Below are positions 1,099 to 38,603 of a DNA stretch of 43,084 nt, one piece after another. The position numbers and the translations under genes were made by a program. The notes under the pieces are model-generated. The model was not told where the DNA came from. It saw only the letters and a list, made by a program, of their open reading frames with translations, and searched no databases. The DNA is from Terriglobia bacterium (GTDB lineage: Bacteria > Acidobacteriota > Terriglobia > Terriglobales > Acidobacteriaceae). The stretch is from assembly GCA_020073395.1 (NCBI GenBank), contig JAIQFF010000024.1:1-43084 (forward strand), read 5' to 3'. How positions within the stretch are numbered: position 1 is the first letter of the stretch; each line of letters opens with the position of its first letter.

Positions 1099-1185
1099 AT
1101 GTCAGCTTCCTGCTTAGCGCGCTGCCAGTGTTGTACTTGTTGTTGTATGTGTGTGTCCACTGGCGCCCGGGGGTTGCTGACCTAA
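1099..1185 (+). CDS. cysteine-rich leader peptide of the sulfite reductase operon (28 aa)
   Basis: This ATG-initiated ORF has 28 codons and ends with TAA at 1183-1185. Eight codons encode Cys (starting at 1111, 1123, 1129, 1132, 1138, 1141, 1144 and 1150), and the core reads CQCCTCCCMC. It lies between a promoter and a strong terminator hairpin ahead of an assimilatory sulfite reductase gene, the step that supplies sulfide for cysteine. The peptide itself is probably not functional; ribosome speed over the Cys codons would be the signal. No Shine-Dalgarno sequence is visible, but the predicted transcript start is at or within a few nucleotides of the ATG, so translation may be leaderless. Poly-Cys leaderless short ORFs acting this way are known from mycobacteria; this example is inferred from sequence alone. 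Confidence 0.8.
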   Translation: MSASCLARCQCCTCCCMCVSTGARGLLT

Positions 1186-1250
1186 GAATAATTTAGAAAT
1201 CGGCACTTATAACCCACCGCCAGTGCAACTCACTGGCGGTGGGTTTTTTT
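1124..1250 (+). promoter_or_regulatory. cysteine-responsive transcription attenuator (three alternative pairings)
   Basis: Region 1 (GCCAGTG, 1124-1130, inside the Cys codons) pairs with region 2 (CACTGGC, 1158-1164). Region 2 (CACTGGCG, 1158-1165) also pairs with region 3 (CGCCAGTG, 1218-1225), and GGGTT (1171-1175) extends this with AACCC (1211-1215). Region 3 in turn pairs with region 4 to form the terminator (1213-1225 with 1231-1243). The pairings exclude one another. When Cys-tRNA is plentiful the ribosome reaches the stop at 1183 and covers region 2, so the terminator forms. When Cys-tRNA is short the ribosome stalls on the early Cys codons, region 2 captures region 3, and transcription reads through into the reductase gene. 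The pairings are seen directly; the regulation is inferred. Confidence 0.8.
1213..1250 (+). terminator. intrinsic terminator within the attenuator
   Basis: The 13-bp arms CCCACCGCCAGTG (1213-1225) and CACTGGCGGTGGG (1231-1243) are perfect complements with a CAACT loop. Seven T follow at 1244-1250. It ends only 15 nt before the ATG of the reductase gene, so it must be bypassed for the operon to be expressed. Confidence 0.92.
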
Positions 1251-2996: not shown

Positions 2997-3190
2997 TGTC
3001 ATCCTGAGCGCAGCCCGTCTATTCGCTTGCGAATGGACGGGTGGAGTCGAAGGATCCCTAGCAGCTCACGAACGATTGGAAGTTAGGGATAATTTCATGA
3101 AGTTCCGCGAGGAAAGCGCGAAGCAGGTAGGGGTCCTTCGACTGCGTGGCTGCTTCTCTACGCGAAGCGGCCACTCCGCTCAGGATGACA
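2997..3190 (+). repeat. inverted-repeat intergenic element inside the sulfur operon
   Basis: The ends TGTCATCCTGAGCG (2997-3010) and CGCTCAGGATGACA (3177-3190) are perfect 14-bp inverted copies. Inside, GTCGAAGGATCCCT near 3047 and its near-complement near 3130-3142 form a second nested pair. A further partial copy, TTCAGGATGACA, follows near 3194. No coding capacity is apparent. It separates the reductase gene from the next gene of what is otherwise an overlapping operon and would fold into a long hairpin in the mRNA. It resembles the short mobile or REP-like repeats common in soil bacterial genomes. Confidence 0.75.
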
Positions 3191-3218: not shown

Positions 3219-3842
3219 ATGACTTTATTTCCGATGTTCATGAAACTCGAAGGCCGCTCCTGCCTGGTAGTCGGCGCCGGCACTATCGGCGAGCCGAAGA
3301 TCGGCAGCCTGCTTGCGTCCGGCGCCTCGGTGCGCGTAGTGGCGTTCACTGCCACGGCGGCTGTTGCCGAATGGGCAAAGACGGGAGCGATCACATGGGA
3401 AACCAGAACTTTCAATACCGCCGACCTCGAGGGAGTTTTCCTGGTCATTGCCGCGACCAATTCTCGAGATGTGAACGCCGCGATTTTCCGCGAGGCTGGA
3501 CGGCGAAACATTCTGTGTAACGTGGTGGATGATCCCGAGCACTGCGATTTTTATTATCCCGCGGTGGTGCGGCGAGGAGAGCTGCAACTTGCCATCTCGA
3601 CCAACGGCCACAGCCCCGCGCTGGCGCAACGCATCCGGCGCGAACTCGAAATCCAGTTTGGCCCGGAATATGGAGAGTGGCTGGAGCAGCTGGGCACGAT
3701 CAGGCGGCAATTGTTTGCCAGCACGATCGATCCTGAGGAGCGGCGTCATCTGTTGCACGAACTGGCCAGCCGCGAGGCCTTCGAACGAGCGCAATCCGCT
3801 GGATTCAATATCGAAGCAACCAGTCTGGAGAAAATATCATGA
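3219..3842 (+). CDS. precorrin-2 dehydrogenase / sirohydrochlorin ferrochelatase (Met8/CysG N-domain type)
   Basis: This 207-residue protein turns precorrin-2 into sirohydrochlorin with NAD+ and may insert the iron to give siroheme. The nucleotide-binding loop VVGAGTIGEPKIGSLL (residues about 16-32) begins a Rossmann fold, and the family's C-terminal signature YPAVVRRGELQLAIST followed by a GHSPALAQRIRREL-type segment is clear. Length is that of the stand-alone Met8 class, so this is the CysG N-terminal half without the methyltransferase, which is the next gene. The stop overlaps the next start by 4 nt (ATGA). It supplies the cofactor for the reductase at the head of the operon. Confidence 0.9.
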   Translation: MTLFPMFMKLEGRSCLVVGAGTIGEPKIGSLLASGASVRVVAFTATAAVAEWAKTGAITWETRTFNTADLEGVFLVIAATNSRDVNAAIFREAGRRNILCNVVDDPEHCDFYYPAVVRRGELQLAISTNGHSPALAQRIRRELEIQFGPEYGEWLEQLGTIRRQLFASTIDPEERRHLLHELASREAFERAQSAGFNIEATSLEKIS

Positions 3843-4627
3843 CCGGTAAGGTGTACCTGGTGGGAGCGGGTCCGGGCGATCCCGAACTGCTGACCCTTAA
3901 AGCTCTCAAACTTCTGAGGTCAGCCGACGTCGTGCTGCATGACGACCTGATCAGCGCTGACATCCTCGCGTTCATTCCGTCCTCGACCCTGGTTCACAAC
4001 GTGGGCAAGCGCTTCGGACAAAAGCGCATCAGCCAGACAGAAATTCATGCGCTAATGGTCCAGAACGCGCTGCTGGGGCTGCAAGTTGTCCGTCTGAAGA
4101 GTGGCGACCCGCTGATCTTCGGCCGCGCCGGAGAAGAGATGGAAGCTTTGCGCCAGGCTGGCATCGAGTTTGAAATCGTTCCCGGCGTTACCTCTGCCTT
4201 TGGCGCTGCGGCCAACGCGCAGATTCCGCTCAGCCATCGTCACGTTTCATCTGCGGTGGTGCTGGTGACCGGCCACCACGCCGGCGCCGGTGAATTTGCC
4301 GACTGGCCGGCGAAGATACCAACCGACGCAACGGTTGTGGTTTACATGCCCGGCTACGACTATCGCAGCACAGCGCAACAGTTGCTGCGGGCCGGCGTGG
4401 CGGACACGACGCCGTGCGCCATCGTCTCGCAAGCCACCTTGCCGAACGAACAGGTTCACGTGACCACCGTGGAGGACCTGCACAGATCTCCACGACTGCC
4501 CTCGCCTACGTTGCTGGTGGTCGGCGAAGTGGTACGCCTGGCCAAGCCGTCCGCGTTGCAGTTCGGGTGGCAGCGTGATTTTGTCTCGAATAGTTCCGTT
4601 TCGTCGGTTCCTCAGGAGCGTGCGTAG
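3839..4627 (+). CDS. cobA: uroporphyrinogen-III C-methyltransferase (SUMT)
   Basis: The protein has 262 residues. It uses two S-adenosylmethionine molecules to methylate uroporphyrinogen III to precorrin-2, the first step of siroheme synthesis. Family signatures are plain: VGAGPGDPELLTLKA at the N-terminus, RLKSGDPLIFGRAGEE around residues 85-100 and VPGVTSAFGAAA around 113. It begins in a 4-nt overlap with the dehydrogenase gene and its TAG stop shares one base with the GTG start of the next gene, so the three are translationally coupled. The C-terminal 20 residues or so are Ser/Val-rich and outside the conserved core. cobA is the usual name for a stand-alone SUMT; a role in cobalamin synthesis cannot be excluded, but the context is siroheme. 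Confidence 0.9.
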   Translation: MTGKVYLVGAGPGDPELLTLKALKLLRSADVVLHDDLISADILAFIPSSTLVHNVGKRFGQKRISQTEIHALMVQNALLGLQVVRLKSGDPLIFGRAGEEMEALRQAGIEFEIVPGVTSAFGAAANAQIPLSHRHVSSAVVLVTGHHAGAGEFADWPAKIPTDATVVVYMPGYDYRSTAQQLLRAGVADTTPCAIVSQATLPNEQVHVTTVEDLHRSPRLPSPTLLVVGEVVRLAKPSALQFGWQRDFVSNSSVSSVPQERA

Positions 4628-5382
4628 TGAGAGACCACGTAGAGTTGATACCGGCAGAAGCGGAAAAATGGCGGCCGGAAGAAGTATTGAGCTGGGCCTT
4701 TGCCACTTACGGAAACGATGTGGCGATCGCGTCGGGTTTCGGTATTGAAGGCATGGTACTGCTCGACCTGGCCTCGCGGGTGCGCGCGGATTTTCGGGTC
4801 TTCACGCTGGATACGGAATTCCTGTTTCCCGAAACCTACGACCTGATGGATCGGGTCGAGAAGCGCTACGGTATCAAGATTGAAAGGGTTTACAGCACCC
4901 TGACCCCGGAGGAACAGGAGCGCGAGCACGGAGCGGCGCTGTGGAGCCGCGATCCTGACCTGTGTTGCGGTCTGCGCAAAGTTGAGCCGCTGCGAACGAA
5001 GCTGACCGAATTGCGCGCCTGGATCACCGCCATCCGCCGCGACCAGACTTCGTCGCGAGCCTCCGCCCGCAAGGTGGAGTGGGACTCAAAGTTTCAACTG
5101 CTGAAGGTCAATCCCATCGCCGACTGGACTTCGACGATGGTGTGGGGTCACGCCCTCAAGCACAATGTCCCCTACAACCCGCTGCATGACAAGAGCTATC
5201 CCAGCATTGGATGCACCCACTGCACCCGAGCCATCCGCCCAGGAGAAAGTGCGCGGGCCGGGCGTTGGGCCGGGTCTGAGAAGACCGAGTGCGGACTGCA
5301 CGTCACGACGCCGGCCGAGATCGTGCCCCTGGTAGGGACCAAGAGCTCCCAAGCAAAAAGCTCATTTGGTGTTGAAGAGTAG
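4627..5382 (+). CDS. cysH: phosphoadenylyl/adenylyl-sulfate reductase, [4Fe-4S] APS type
   Basis: The protein has 251 residues from GTG 4627, which overlaps the previous stop by one base. It reduces adenylyl sulfate to sulfite with electrons from thioredoxin. Cys113-Cys114 (DLCCGLRK) and Cys196-x-x-Cys199 (GCTHC) are the iron-sulfur ligands that mark the APS-reducing class and are absent from PAPS-only enzymes; Cys222 in ECGLH is the catalytic residue. The PP-loop-like start ASGFGIEGMVLLDL fits the adenylyl-sulfate-binding fold. The product sulfite feeds the reductase at the operon head. ATP sulfurylase is not in this window. The last 15 residues are Ser-rich and weakly conserved. Confidence 0.9.
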   Translation: MRDHVELIPAEAEKWRPEEVLSWAFATYGNDVAIASGFGIEGMVLLDLASRVRADFRVFTLDTEFLFPETYDLMDRVEKRYGIKIERVYSTLTPEEQEREHGAALWSRDPDLCCGLRKVEPLRTKLTELRAWITAIRRDQTSSRASARKVEWDSKFQLLKVNPIADWTSTMVWGHALKHNVPYNPLHDKSYPSIGCTHCTRAIRPGESARAGRWAGSEKTECGLHVTTPAEIVPLVGTKSSQAKSSFGVEE

Positions 5383-11309: not shown

Positions 11310-11405
11310 ATGAAAGCAACTTCCCAGAAGGCTAAGCGAATTACATCGATGGGCACAGGCACGTCGAAGCGAATTAGCGTGCTTCTGGGGGAGGGCGTCA
11401 GGTGA
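11310..11405 (+). CDS. aspartate-family leader peptide of lysC (31 aa)
   Basis: The ATG at 11310 opens 31 codons that stop at TGA 11403-11405. Twelve codons encode amino acids of the aspartate family: four Lys, four Thr, two Ile and two Met counting the start. They are spread over MKATSQKAKRITSM and GTGTSKRI, and region 1 of the attenuator lies within them. A Leu/Gly-rich tail (VLLGEG) encodes region 2. The ORF ends 35 nt before a terminator hairpin ahead of aspartokinase. Codon content, position and RNA pairings fit an attenuation leader; the Shine-Dalgarno sequence is weak (GCGGA near 11296). Confidence 0.65.
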   Translation: MKATSQKAKRITSMGTGTSKRISVLLGEGVR

Positions 11406-11475
11406 GCTGAGAAACACAAAGCTTTAACGGCTTACAAAGACCCACCGCCAGAGGCAACTGGCCGGTGGGTTTTTT
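11323..11475 (+). promoter_or_regulatory. transcription attenuator of lysC (three alternative pairings)
   Basis: Region 1 (CCCAGAAG, 11323-11330, codons 5-7 of the leader) pairs perfectly with region 2 (CTTCTGGG, 11382-11389). The overlapping segment CTGGGGGAGGG (11385-11395) pairs with region 3 (CCCACCGCCAG, 11441-11451) at nine of eleven positions. Region 3 pairs with 11458-11469 to form the terminator. Stalling at Lys or Thr codons between region 1 and about codon 16 would hide region 1, free region 2 and block the terminator. The pairings are seen; the sensed amino acid (Lys, Thr or both) is inferred from codon content. Confidence 0.65.
11441..11475 (+). terminator. intrinsic terminator before lysC
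   Basis: Arms CCCACCGCCAG (11441-11451) and CTGG plus CGGTGGG (11458-11469, one bulged C at 11462) form an 11-bp stem with a six-base loop, followed by six T (11470-11475). The core CCCACCGCCAG is the same as in the terminator before the sulfite reductase gene. It lies 55 nt before the lysC start codon. Confidence 0.85.
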
Positions 11476-11530: not shown

Positions 11531-12988
11531 ATGAACGATCCGTCGGAAGCGAGCAGGGAAGCGGCGAGCCCGAGTTTCGAATGCGTAGTCATGAAATTCG
11601 GCGGGACTTCGGTGGAGGATGCGGCTGCCGTTCGCCGGTTGTGCCGGCTGGTGGCGCGGCCCTCGCCGCAACGTCCGGTAGTGGTGGTCAGCGCTCTGGC
11701 CAAAGTCACCGACCAGTTGATGAACGCGGGCGGGGCGGCGGCCGCAGGACACCTGGATTCCGCCCGGGAGATTCTTCAGGTTCTCTACCGGCGCCATGAA
11801 ACCGTGGCCAGCGGACTGGTGAAGGGCGACGAACGCAGCCGCCTGTTTCGCCAGTTCGCGGACGACTTCAAGGCGCTGGACAAAATGGTGCTTCGAATTG
11901 CCTCAGAGAAGGCCTTGATTCCGCGCATGCAGGACAGTCTCTTGGGAGCCGGCGAATCCCTCTCGTCCATATTGGTGCAGTCCGCATTGCAGGCTGCCGG
12001 TGTGGACGCTACTTTGGTTGATGCCAGAGAGTGCATCGTCACCGATGCCGCACATACCCGGGCCACGCCCCTATGGGACGAGACCAATAAGCGGCTGCAG
12101 GCGATCGTGCTGCCCTCGCTGGAGGCGGGGCAGGTCCCGGTGATGGGCGGGTTCGTCGGCGCGACCCGAGACGGCATTCCTACCACGCTGGGTCGCGGCG
12201 GTTCCGACTTCAGCGCCTCGATCGTGGGCGCAGGCCTGCACGCGAGCCGGATCGAGATCTGGACTGACGTGGATGGAATCCTGACCACCGATCCGAATCT
12301 TTGTCCGGACGCCCGCCGCGTCGCTCGTATGAGCTTCGATGAAGCGGCCGATCTGGCCTACTTCGGCGCCAAAGTATTGCACCCGGCCACGCTGTTGCCC
12401 GCCGTGCGCAGTAACATTCCGGTGTGGGTCCTAAATTCGCGCAACCCGGAGTGTCCCGGTACCGAAATCGTGGCGTTCTGCGAACCAGCCGATGGGGTCA
12501 AGGCCATTACGGCGAAGCGAGGCGTGGCCATCGTGGACGTGGAGCCTGTGCGCTGGTTTGCGCCCGAACTCCTGCGCGAAGTCTTCGACGTGTTCGAACG
12601 TCATCAGCACAGCCTGGATTTGCTGTCGGCCTCGCGCGGCAGCCTGTCTCTGCTGGTGAGTTCGGTCTCGGGCTTGCCGGCGATCGCCGAAGAACTGAAG
12701 GGGATGGCCAACGTCCGTTGGGAAAACCACAAGGCGCTGGTCTGCCTGGTAGGAGAGCAGGTCCGGCGCCGTCCGGAAATTGCCAGCCAGGCATTCCGCG
12801 CTATCGGCGACATTGAGGTGCGCATGATCTGCCAGGGGGCCTCGGAGCGGAACATCGGCTTCCTGGTGGACGAGTCACGGGCCGAGGGGGCGGTGCAACG
12901 CCTGCACCGGGCTTTCTTTTCAAACTCGGAACCGGCCGTCGCGAATACCTCGCAGGCGATGTGCCAGGCCGAAGGTGCCTGGCTGTGA
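11531..12988 (+). CDS. lysC: aspartate kinase (monofunctional, with C-terminal ACT domains)
   Basis: The 485-residue enzyme phosphorylates aspartate, the first step toward lysine, threonine, methionine and isoleucine. ATG 11531 follows a good AGGGGAG ribosome site; the frame is open upstream into the terminator but that part is not conserved. KFGGTS (residues 22-27) starts the kinase domain, with the conserved GRGGSDFSAS motif and a WTDVDGILTTDP segment further on. The C-terminal 150 residues hold the ACT regulatory region, so allosteric inhibition is likely in addition to attenuation. There is no homoserine dehydrogenase domain. The final enzyme of lysine synthesis, lysA, lies 15 kb away. 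Confidence 0.93.
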   Translation: MNDPSEASREAASPSFECVVMKFGGTSVEDAAAVRRLCRLVARPSPQRPVVVVSALAKVTDQLMNAGGAAAAGHLDSAREILQVLYRRHETVASGLVKGDERSRLFRQFADDFKALDKMVLRIASEKALIPRMQDSLLGAGESLSSILVQSALQAAGVDATLVDARECIVTDAAHTRATPLWDETNKRLQAIVLPSLEAGQVPVMGGFVGATRDGIPTTLGRGGSDFSASIVGAGLHASRIEIWTDVDGILTTDPNLCPDARRVARMSFDEAADLAYFGAKVLHPATLLPAVRSNIPVWVLNSRNPECPGTEIVAFCEPADGVKAITAKRGVAIVDVEPVRWFAPELLREVFDVFERHQHSLDLLSASRGSLSLLVSSVSGLPAIAEELKGMANVRWENHKALVCLVGEQVRRRPEIASQAFRAIGDIEVRMICQGASERNIGFLVDESRAEGAVQRLHRAFFSNSEPAVANTSQAMCQAEGAWL

Positions 12989-38435: not shown

Positions 38436-38603
38436 GGGCGGACCCCGGGCGTAAGACCTCGGACTTCGGACCTTTAGGCGTCAGGCTTCGGGCCCCTGGC
38501 GTCGAACCGTATCCCTGAGCTGTCAGATCTCAGCCTTCAGCCAGACTCCCATGAGCCGCGAAGCGGCGTCAGAATGCAGCCCAAGGCGTAAGCCCTGGGT
38601 CAG
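38436..38603. other. intergenic region with degenerate repeats
   Basis: This 168-nt gap between convergent genes holds GC-rich, partly self-complementary stretches such as GCCGCGAAGCGGC and AGCCC...GCCCTGGGT near 38590, typical of repeat remnants. No gene or clear terminator is seen. Confidence 0.4.

Follow-up and report, generated by a model that had tools for sequence, protein, structure and literature searches.

A probable cysteine-responsive transcription attenuator before the sulfite reductase operon of an acidobacterial genome, and a leader module that other amino-acid operons may share

What does a short reading frame crowded with cysteine codons do directly in front of a sulfite reductase gene? 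The question is raised by a window of 43,084 nucleotides (the whole stretch of DNA that was analysed) from a Terriglobia bacterium, a member of the Acidobacteriota, which are abundant and poorly studied soil bacteria. In the classical attenuators of E. coli, such as those of trp, thr and his, a leader reading frame with control codons is combined with the alternative pairings 1:2, 2:3 and 3:4 and an intrinsic terminator. To judge from sequence comparisons, positions 1060–1250 of the window very probably form an attenuator of this ribosome-mediated (trp-type) class, which would adjust the transcription of a sir–sirohaem–cysH operon to the supply of cysteine. The mechanism is textbook; the novelty concerns the phylum, the regulon, a likely leaderless start combined with attenuation, and the module that several operons may share.

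The genes concerned all lie on the forward strand. The sir product (1266–2957) is assigned to the ferredoxin-type sulfite/nitrite reductase family (NirA/SirA-like), its best models scoring below the NCBIfam cut-offs. Its closest solved relative is 1zj8, deposited as NirA, which we take to be a sulfite reductase of M. tuberculosis. Further downstream are two genes of sirohaem synthesis, encoding a precorrin-2 dehydrogenase (CysG N-terminal domain; 3219–3842; TIGR01470 over its cut-off) and a uroporphyrinogen-III C-methyltransferase (3839–4627; TIGR01469 over its cut-off), followed by cysH of the phosphoadenylyl-sulfate reductase family (4627–5382; NF002537 and TIGR00434 over their cut-offs). 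Because of these sirohaem and cysH neighbours, sulfite is favoured as the substrate of the sir product, in agreement with the first-pass annotation, which had placed the leader directly before a sulfite reductase operon. The space between sir and the first sirohaem gene holds nested inverted repeats (2997–3190) that resemble a REP/MITE-type element; similar letters were seen by eye at another locus of the same genome (L151).

The leader reading frame, MSASCLARCQCCTCCCMCVSTGARGLLT, occupies 1099–1185 of the forward strand. It has 28 codons, eight of them for cysteine (six TGT and two TGC, at 1111, 1123, 1129, 1132, 1138, 1141, 1144 and 1150), and these make up a control region at 1111–1152. Before it lies a predicted sigma-70-type promoter, TTGACA-17-TACCAT (1060–1088), with 10 of 12 consensus matches. 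Since this match ends 10 nt before the leader ATG, the transcript is expected to start at about 1095–1099, within a few bases of the ATG, and the leader mRNA is probably near-leaderless. The reading frame and its eight cysteine codons had been described correctly at first pass, and the transcript start then expected near 1095–1099 fits the predicted promoter. Relatives display the same arrangement. The first, second and last bases of the −10 box show almost no variation in 49 aligned relatives. A −10 candidate was found in 84 of 92 sir leader loci tested, 58 of which have a promoter score of at least 9/12 (shuffled sequences, 6/92); in 57 of these 58 the first in-frame ATG stands 5–14 nt past the predicted −10, as expected of leaderless or near-leaderless mRNA.

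Three mutually exclusive pairings, already recognised in the first-pass annotation, can be drawn in the RNA that follows. Region 1 (1101–1130) contributes 1124–1130 (GCCAGTG), complementary to 1158–1164 (CACTGGC), and 1101–1106 (GTCAGC), which extends the 1:2 pairing by matching 1176–1181 (GCTGAC). Region 2 (1158–1181), overlapping the last codons of the leader, is the 5′ strand of a predicted antiterminator whose 3′ strand is region 3 (1200–1225, with 1200–1205 and 1211–1225 as paired segments). In this 2:3 pairing, 1158–1165 joins 1218–1225 and 1171–1175 (GGGTT) joins 1211–1215 (AACCC), as had been noted earlier; the predicted structure is longer than then claimed and includes a further helix of 1175–1180 with 1200–1205 and an apical stem of 1182–1186 with 1192–1196 (1182–1196) around the leader stop codon. 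The 3:4 pairing is an intrinsic terminator (1211–1250), identified by a terminator match and by folding. Its stem pairs 1211–1225 with region 4 (1231–1245) around a 5-nt loop, and its T7 run lies at 1244–1250; the run had been reported at first pass, and the stem, then given as a perfect 13 bp, is really 15 bp long. The segment 1211–1225 doubles as antiterminator 3′ strand and terminator 5′ arm, and 15 nt separate the terminator end from the start of sir.

Folding of 1099–1250, suggested earlier as a check, gave z = −3.48, with 0/200 shuffles as stable. The predicted antiterminator, including its apical stem, has 23 pairs and −25.3 kcal/mol; the terminator reaches −29.2 kcal/mol. The terminator persists in the minimum-energy fold even without region 1, and in RNA ending at 1225 the 2:3 pairing is favoured over 1:2 by minimum energy, with no ribosome needed. 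The switch therefore has to depend on the order of folding, as it does in other attenuators. A role of the hairpin as the terminator of the upstream gene was ruled out by the intervening promoter match at 1060–1088 and by a separate weak terminator-like site at 990–1004. At the Rfam gathering score, the search of the whole window gave no riboswitch, T-box or other family at the sir leader. The single match above that score in the window is an Acido-Lenti-1 RNA (RF01687) at 38554–38599 on the reverse strand, with 52.9 bits.

The proposed attenuator would work as follows. Transcription would begin at about 1095–1099, and a ribosome would load on the AUG at the 5′ end of the RNA. With ample Cys-tRNA, the ribosome would reach the stop codon and cover the inner part of region 2, so that the 3:4 terminator forms before sir. 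With scarce Cys-tRNA, it would stall on the cysteine codons, covering region 1 and leaving region 2 free; 2:3 could then pair ahead of the synthesis of region 4, and the polymerase would continue into sir. If the leader were untranslated, 1:2 should form and the terminator should win, which is the least certain step, as the ribosome-free preference of RNA ending at 1225 for 2:3 makes the outcome without translation uncertain. With an assumed footprint size, a ribosome at the cysteine codons from 1123 to 1141 would sit over 1124–1130 (one at 1144 partly), with everything from 1158 on left free. From 1111, its footprint would extend over 1101–1106 only; from 1150, it would intrude on region 2; and from the stop codon, it would span about 1166–1195. 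This modelled geometry fits attenuation.

Is the arrangement peculiar to this genome? Relatives of sir were taken from 65 of 150 related genomes that matched at 1e-100 and from the best 80 of 562 in a genome collection. Removal of 15 of the 145 loci (duplicates or fewer than 100 nt upstream) left 130 distinct ones, 112 from Acidobacteriota and 18 labelled as other phyla, the labels being taken from record titles and genome kinship. A leader was sought as a short ORF ending 25–420 nt upstream of sir and was scored by the number of Cys per 8 residues. At least four Cys in 8 residues were found in 83/112 Acidobacteriota loci, which are related by descent and thus count as non-independent events, compared with 0/112 on the antisense strand, 4/560 dinucleotide shuffles and 1/18 loci labelled as other phyla, this lone positive being an Opitutia record (L105). 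At the threshold of three Cys, the counts are 103/112, 8/112 antisense, 79/560 shuffles and 1/18, and given the high shuffle and antisense rates, an individual locus with exactly three Cys is weak evidence. Nine of the 112 Acidobacteriota loci have no short ORF with even three Cys in 8 residues.

The tract could in principle be read in another frame. The residue that comes nearest to Cys is Leu, with at least four in 8 residues in 60/112 loci (then Arg, 42), and the +2 frame of a TGT/TGC tract is a run of Leu. That leucine is the sensed residue seems most improbable, since the ATG at promoter spacing opens the Cys frame, the downstream genes are sulfur genes, and the Cys at alignment column 29 (45/46) follows a variable codon that would be expected to break a Leu run. 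We attribute the Leu-rich ORFs to the shifted frame of the TGT/TGC tract.

The leaders recur together with their terminators. A hairpin of −11 kcal/mol or stronger follows 92/103 leaders (shuffled spacers, 13/309), and one of −20 kcal/mol or stronger follows 69/103 (shuffled spacers, 0/309). The remaining 11 comprise seven hairpins weaker than −11 and four loci without a hairpin by the finder; several of them visibly have a fuller hairpin that the finder clipped, and all were scored as misses and left out of the z-score and partner-swap tests, which used the other 92 loci. The layout that had been proposed as worth seeking before sir elsewhere is thus present, both as leader and as terminator, at most of the Acidobacteriota loci examined. 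These terminators bear directly on a different account, in which the hairpin has a secondary part and the poly-Cys leader works without it, through stalled ribosomes that either shield the RNA from Rho or couple translation to sir. The leader appears near-leaderless and is Cys-rich like mycobacterial sORFs, and Rho has been suggested for actinobacterial Cys leaders in the accessible part of one study (PMC1262725). Nevertheless, such control is improbable here, as a strong intrinsic terminator stands after 92/103 leaders and its 5′ arm matches the leader end locus by locus, for which Rho control has no need.

That match was followed in alignments, together with selection on the codons. An alignment of 47 leaders, all of the commonest type, has four conserved Cys columns (45/46, 44/47, 46/47 and 41/47), which mix TGT and TGC; the columns interleaved with them vary. 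This is the pattern of kept Cys codons among drifting neighbours that had been named at first pass as a check. TGT makes up 211/326 (65%) of the leader Cys codons, compared with 60/525 (11%) when the first 500 codons of the corresponding sir genes are counted. The CTGG of region 2 is invariant in 49/49 aligned relatives, and by this alignment the last codons of the leader are conserved as RNA. It could also be supposed that the active agent is the Cys-rich peptide, perhaps as a small metal- or redox-binding protein, with the hairpin no more than a plain terminator. Clusters of Cys are in general able to bind metal. An acting peptide is nonetheless very unlikely: peptide length and Cys spacing are highly variable among the relatives, the codons conserved at the C-terminal end are the ones that form the pairing strand, and a plain terminator between promoter and sir would silence the operon.

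Returning to attenuation, the two hairpins leave traces of different kinds. In the 49 aligned relatives, 89% of the cells for terminator pairs are kept and 27 show a double change, with 0/500 shuffles as high on either measure; further pair types are not in excess over shuffles (245/500). The antiterminator core CTGGC:GCCAG is nearly invariant in this close group, a flanking pair is UA in 24 sequences and AU in 8, and only 59% of the cells of the inner helix are kept. Covariation of the antiterminator in the close group has no excess over shuffles on three of five measures, the shuffle counts being 440/500 for double-change pairs, 500/500 for further pair types and 33/500 for the score. Single-locus shuffle z-scores fall below −2 in 27/92 loci for 2:3, which is weak, and in 54/92 for 1:2. 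For this reason, partners were swapped between loci. In 45 divergent loci, 2:3 with its own partner averages −17.9 kcal/mol vs −14.7 kcal/mol with swapped ones (0/2000 permutations), so the conservation of pairing in relatives that had been proposed as a check is found; in 47 close-group loci, the same test is not significant (207/2000). For 1:2, the own partner beats swapped ones over 92 loci in all three groupings (0/2000), with windows that can overlap. The first-pass annotation had called this the full layout of ribosome-mediated attenuation, and the conserved layout, the terminator and the pairing at divergent loci support that description.

Within the source genome, the sir leader stands apart from similar strings of codons. 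The pattern TGYTGYNNNTGYTGYTGY has one match in the window (0/100 shuffles) and 18 in the whole genome, sir leader included. Each of the 17 other matches lies within an open frame of 163–783 residues (16 antisense, one sense), and given these enclosing frames, they were rejected as leaders and attributed to coding sequence or repeats; the sir leader lies under no open frame of at least 90 residues.

How does the putative attenuator relate to known systems? Like the E. coli trp, thr and his type, the sir leader has control codons, predicted 1:2, 2:3 and 3:4 pairings and an intrinsic terminator; unlike them, it concerns cysteine and sulfite reduction in Acidobacteriota, and its ORF is at or near the predicted 5′ end of the mRNA. 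The features by which a classical attenuator is recognised in sequence are present: an ORF rich in the product amino acid, an intrinsic terminator, a predicted antiterminator that would exclude it and a predicted 1:2 pairing over the control codons. The title of a 2020 paper by Canestrari reportedly concerns attenuators formed by poly-Cys leaderless sORFs in mycobacteria. The sir leader resembles mycobacterial poly-Cys sORFs in its runs of Cys codons near the stop and the cys operons downstream, and it may resemble them in a leaderless start, to judge from the spacing between predicted promoter and ATG. The parallel with mycobacteria drawn at first pass holds for the poly-Cys leaders and stops at the hairpins: in the accessible part of Seliverstov 2005 (PMC1262725), the Cys leaders of Actinobacteria are described as having no obvious or conserved terminator hairpin, unlike the sir leader with its intrinsic terminator and matching antiterminator. 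A further relative is the uORFC-8-2 motif before cysS in Rhodobacterales, for which, in the accessible part of PMC8632094, a Cys-codon uORF and a subsequent structure with a terminator-like U run are described and ribosome-mediated attenuation is proposed. By that description the two are set apart: uORFC-8-2 has two tandem Cys codons before cysS, whereas the leaders here mostly have 3–8 before sulfur-assimilation genes, and that of the window precedes sir, not cysS.

A literature search, with subscription papers mostly outside its coverage, returned no report of an Acidobacteriota Cys attenuator, regulon or shared module, and the accessible parts of PMC4833913, PMC9094748 and PMC13236596 mention no such attenuator. 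In a genome survey, according to its accessible part, almost all predicted Acidobacteria attenuators lacked an associated function (PMC2965389); if the present reading is true, a mechanism can be assigned in this phylum. It would also join two features described apart in the accessible sources, namely a leaderless poly-Cys reading frame (predicted here) and an attenuator with an intrinsic terminator.

The layout is not confined to sir. A covariance model, R1, was built from 30 sir leaders and run on the 150 relatives; at 0.01, it matched in 52 of them, and the 93 matches listed comprise 24 at known sir genes, 17 antisense duplicates, a second match in the window and 51 others. These 51 were sorted by downstream gene with the leaders already known, so that the sorting was not blind; family scans cover 49, the other two (L201 and L202) lacking a 100-residue ORF within 500 nt. 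Sulfur-linked genes follow in 21/51 loci, and the leader has 3–8 Cys in 19 of these, the exceptions being L170, cut at a contig end, and L188, with no ORF by the rule. The genes are for sirohaem synthesis (4), a longer nitrite/sulfite reductase (5), TauE permease (3), rhodanese (3), CysD-like proteins with a PAPS-reductase domain (2), a cysteine-synthase-like protein (1), an NMT1-like binding protein (2) and a class-V aminotransferase (1), the last two kinds presumably serving sulfur metabolism. In the source genome, no poly-Cys leader was found directly upstream of the three TauE homologues, and a CysD search gave no match. If attenuation is true, a sulfur regulon, including a locus with rhodanese and a family 2A encapsulin, would be under the control of Cys-tRNA charging without a protein repressor. 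Leaders with 3–4 Cys precede rhodanese (L175, L225), and a family 2A encapsulin gene lies further downstream (L175, L226), hinting at a cysteine-controlled sulfur compartment.

Other matches carry other codons. Before 16 aspartokinase-like amino-acid kinase genes, the leaders have 0–2 Cys, and 15/16 have at least three Thr. In codon content they are Thr/Ile-rich like E. coli thrL; the difference is that the RNA module of Cys leaders led to them. Leaders rich in Met/Thr/Ile precede homoserine dehydrogenase (4 loci), and one locus precedes aspartate-semialdehyde dehydrogenase. Before ilvC and ilvD (L193, L206), the leaders are rich in Ile/Val/Leu, with MSHVGQNTVGVLLLIGVSVVLLITPVLAGRT in L206. 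The 7 other or unclear loci include three that are Cys-rich (L201, L203, L204). R1 includes about four Cys codons and is thus biased to Cys leaders, with no bias to sulfur genes; its Cys codons do not account for leaders rich in Thr or in Ile/Val/Leu. It also selects a similar hairpin, so likeness of hairpins is no proof of shared descent. The second match in the window belongs to the same series: a leader ORF, MKATSQKAKRITSMGTGTSKRISVLLGEGVR (11310–11405), is followed by a terminator hairpin at about 11440–11470 and an aspartokinase-like gene starting at 11531 (AA_kinase and ACT), and 11310–11475 is probably a threonine-responsive attenuator built on the same RNA module as the sir leader.

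One terminator/antiterminator module may thus have been copied before many amino-acid operons with only its leader codons swapped, becoming the phylum's own general amino-acid sensor, a proposal whose chances we regard as even. Its codons would be those of Cys where sulfur genes follow, of Thr at aspartokinase, of Met/Thr/Ile at homoserine dehydrogenase and of Ile/Val/Leu at ilvC and ilvD, and it would make the spread of an attenuator between operons testable. The exact sir terminator hairpin has 4 matches in 21 genomes (three at sir, one at lysC), and the reversed control has none. When sir and lysC leaders were compared for the frame in which region 2 is read, 7/16 lysC loci had a usable ORF and anchor, too few for more than a hint. 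In a phylum-wide draw, R1 matched at 1e-4 in 10/396 genomes, source genome included, a lower bound because the model is narrow and the filters strict. Two of the 10 belong to another family and carry a CCC leader upstream of a cysteine-synthase-like gene (PALP); by eye, CTGG has become CCGG on the leader side, with the complement on the terminator side. As a minor observation, Cys-containing leaders also precede OmpP1/FadL-like outer-membrane proteins (L203, L231), for which an outer-membrane route for sulfur compounds is possible.
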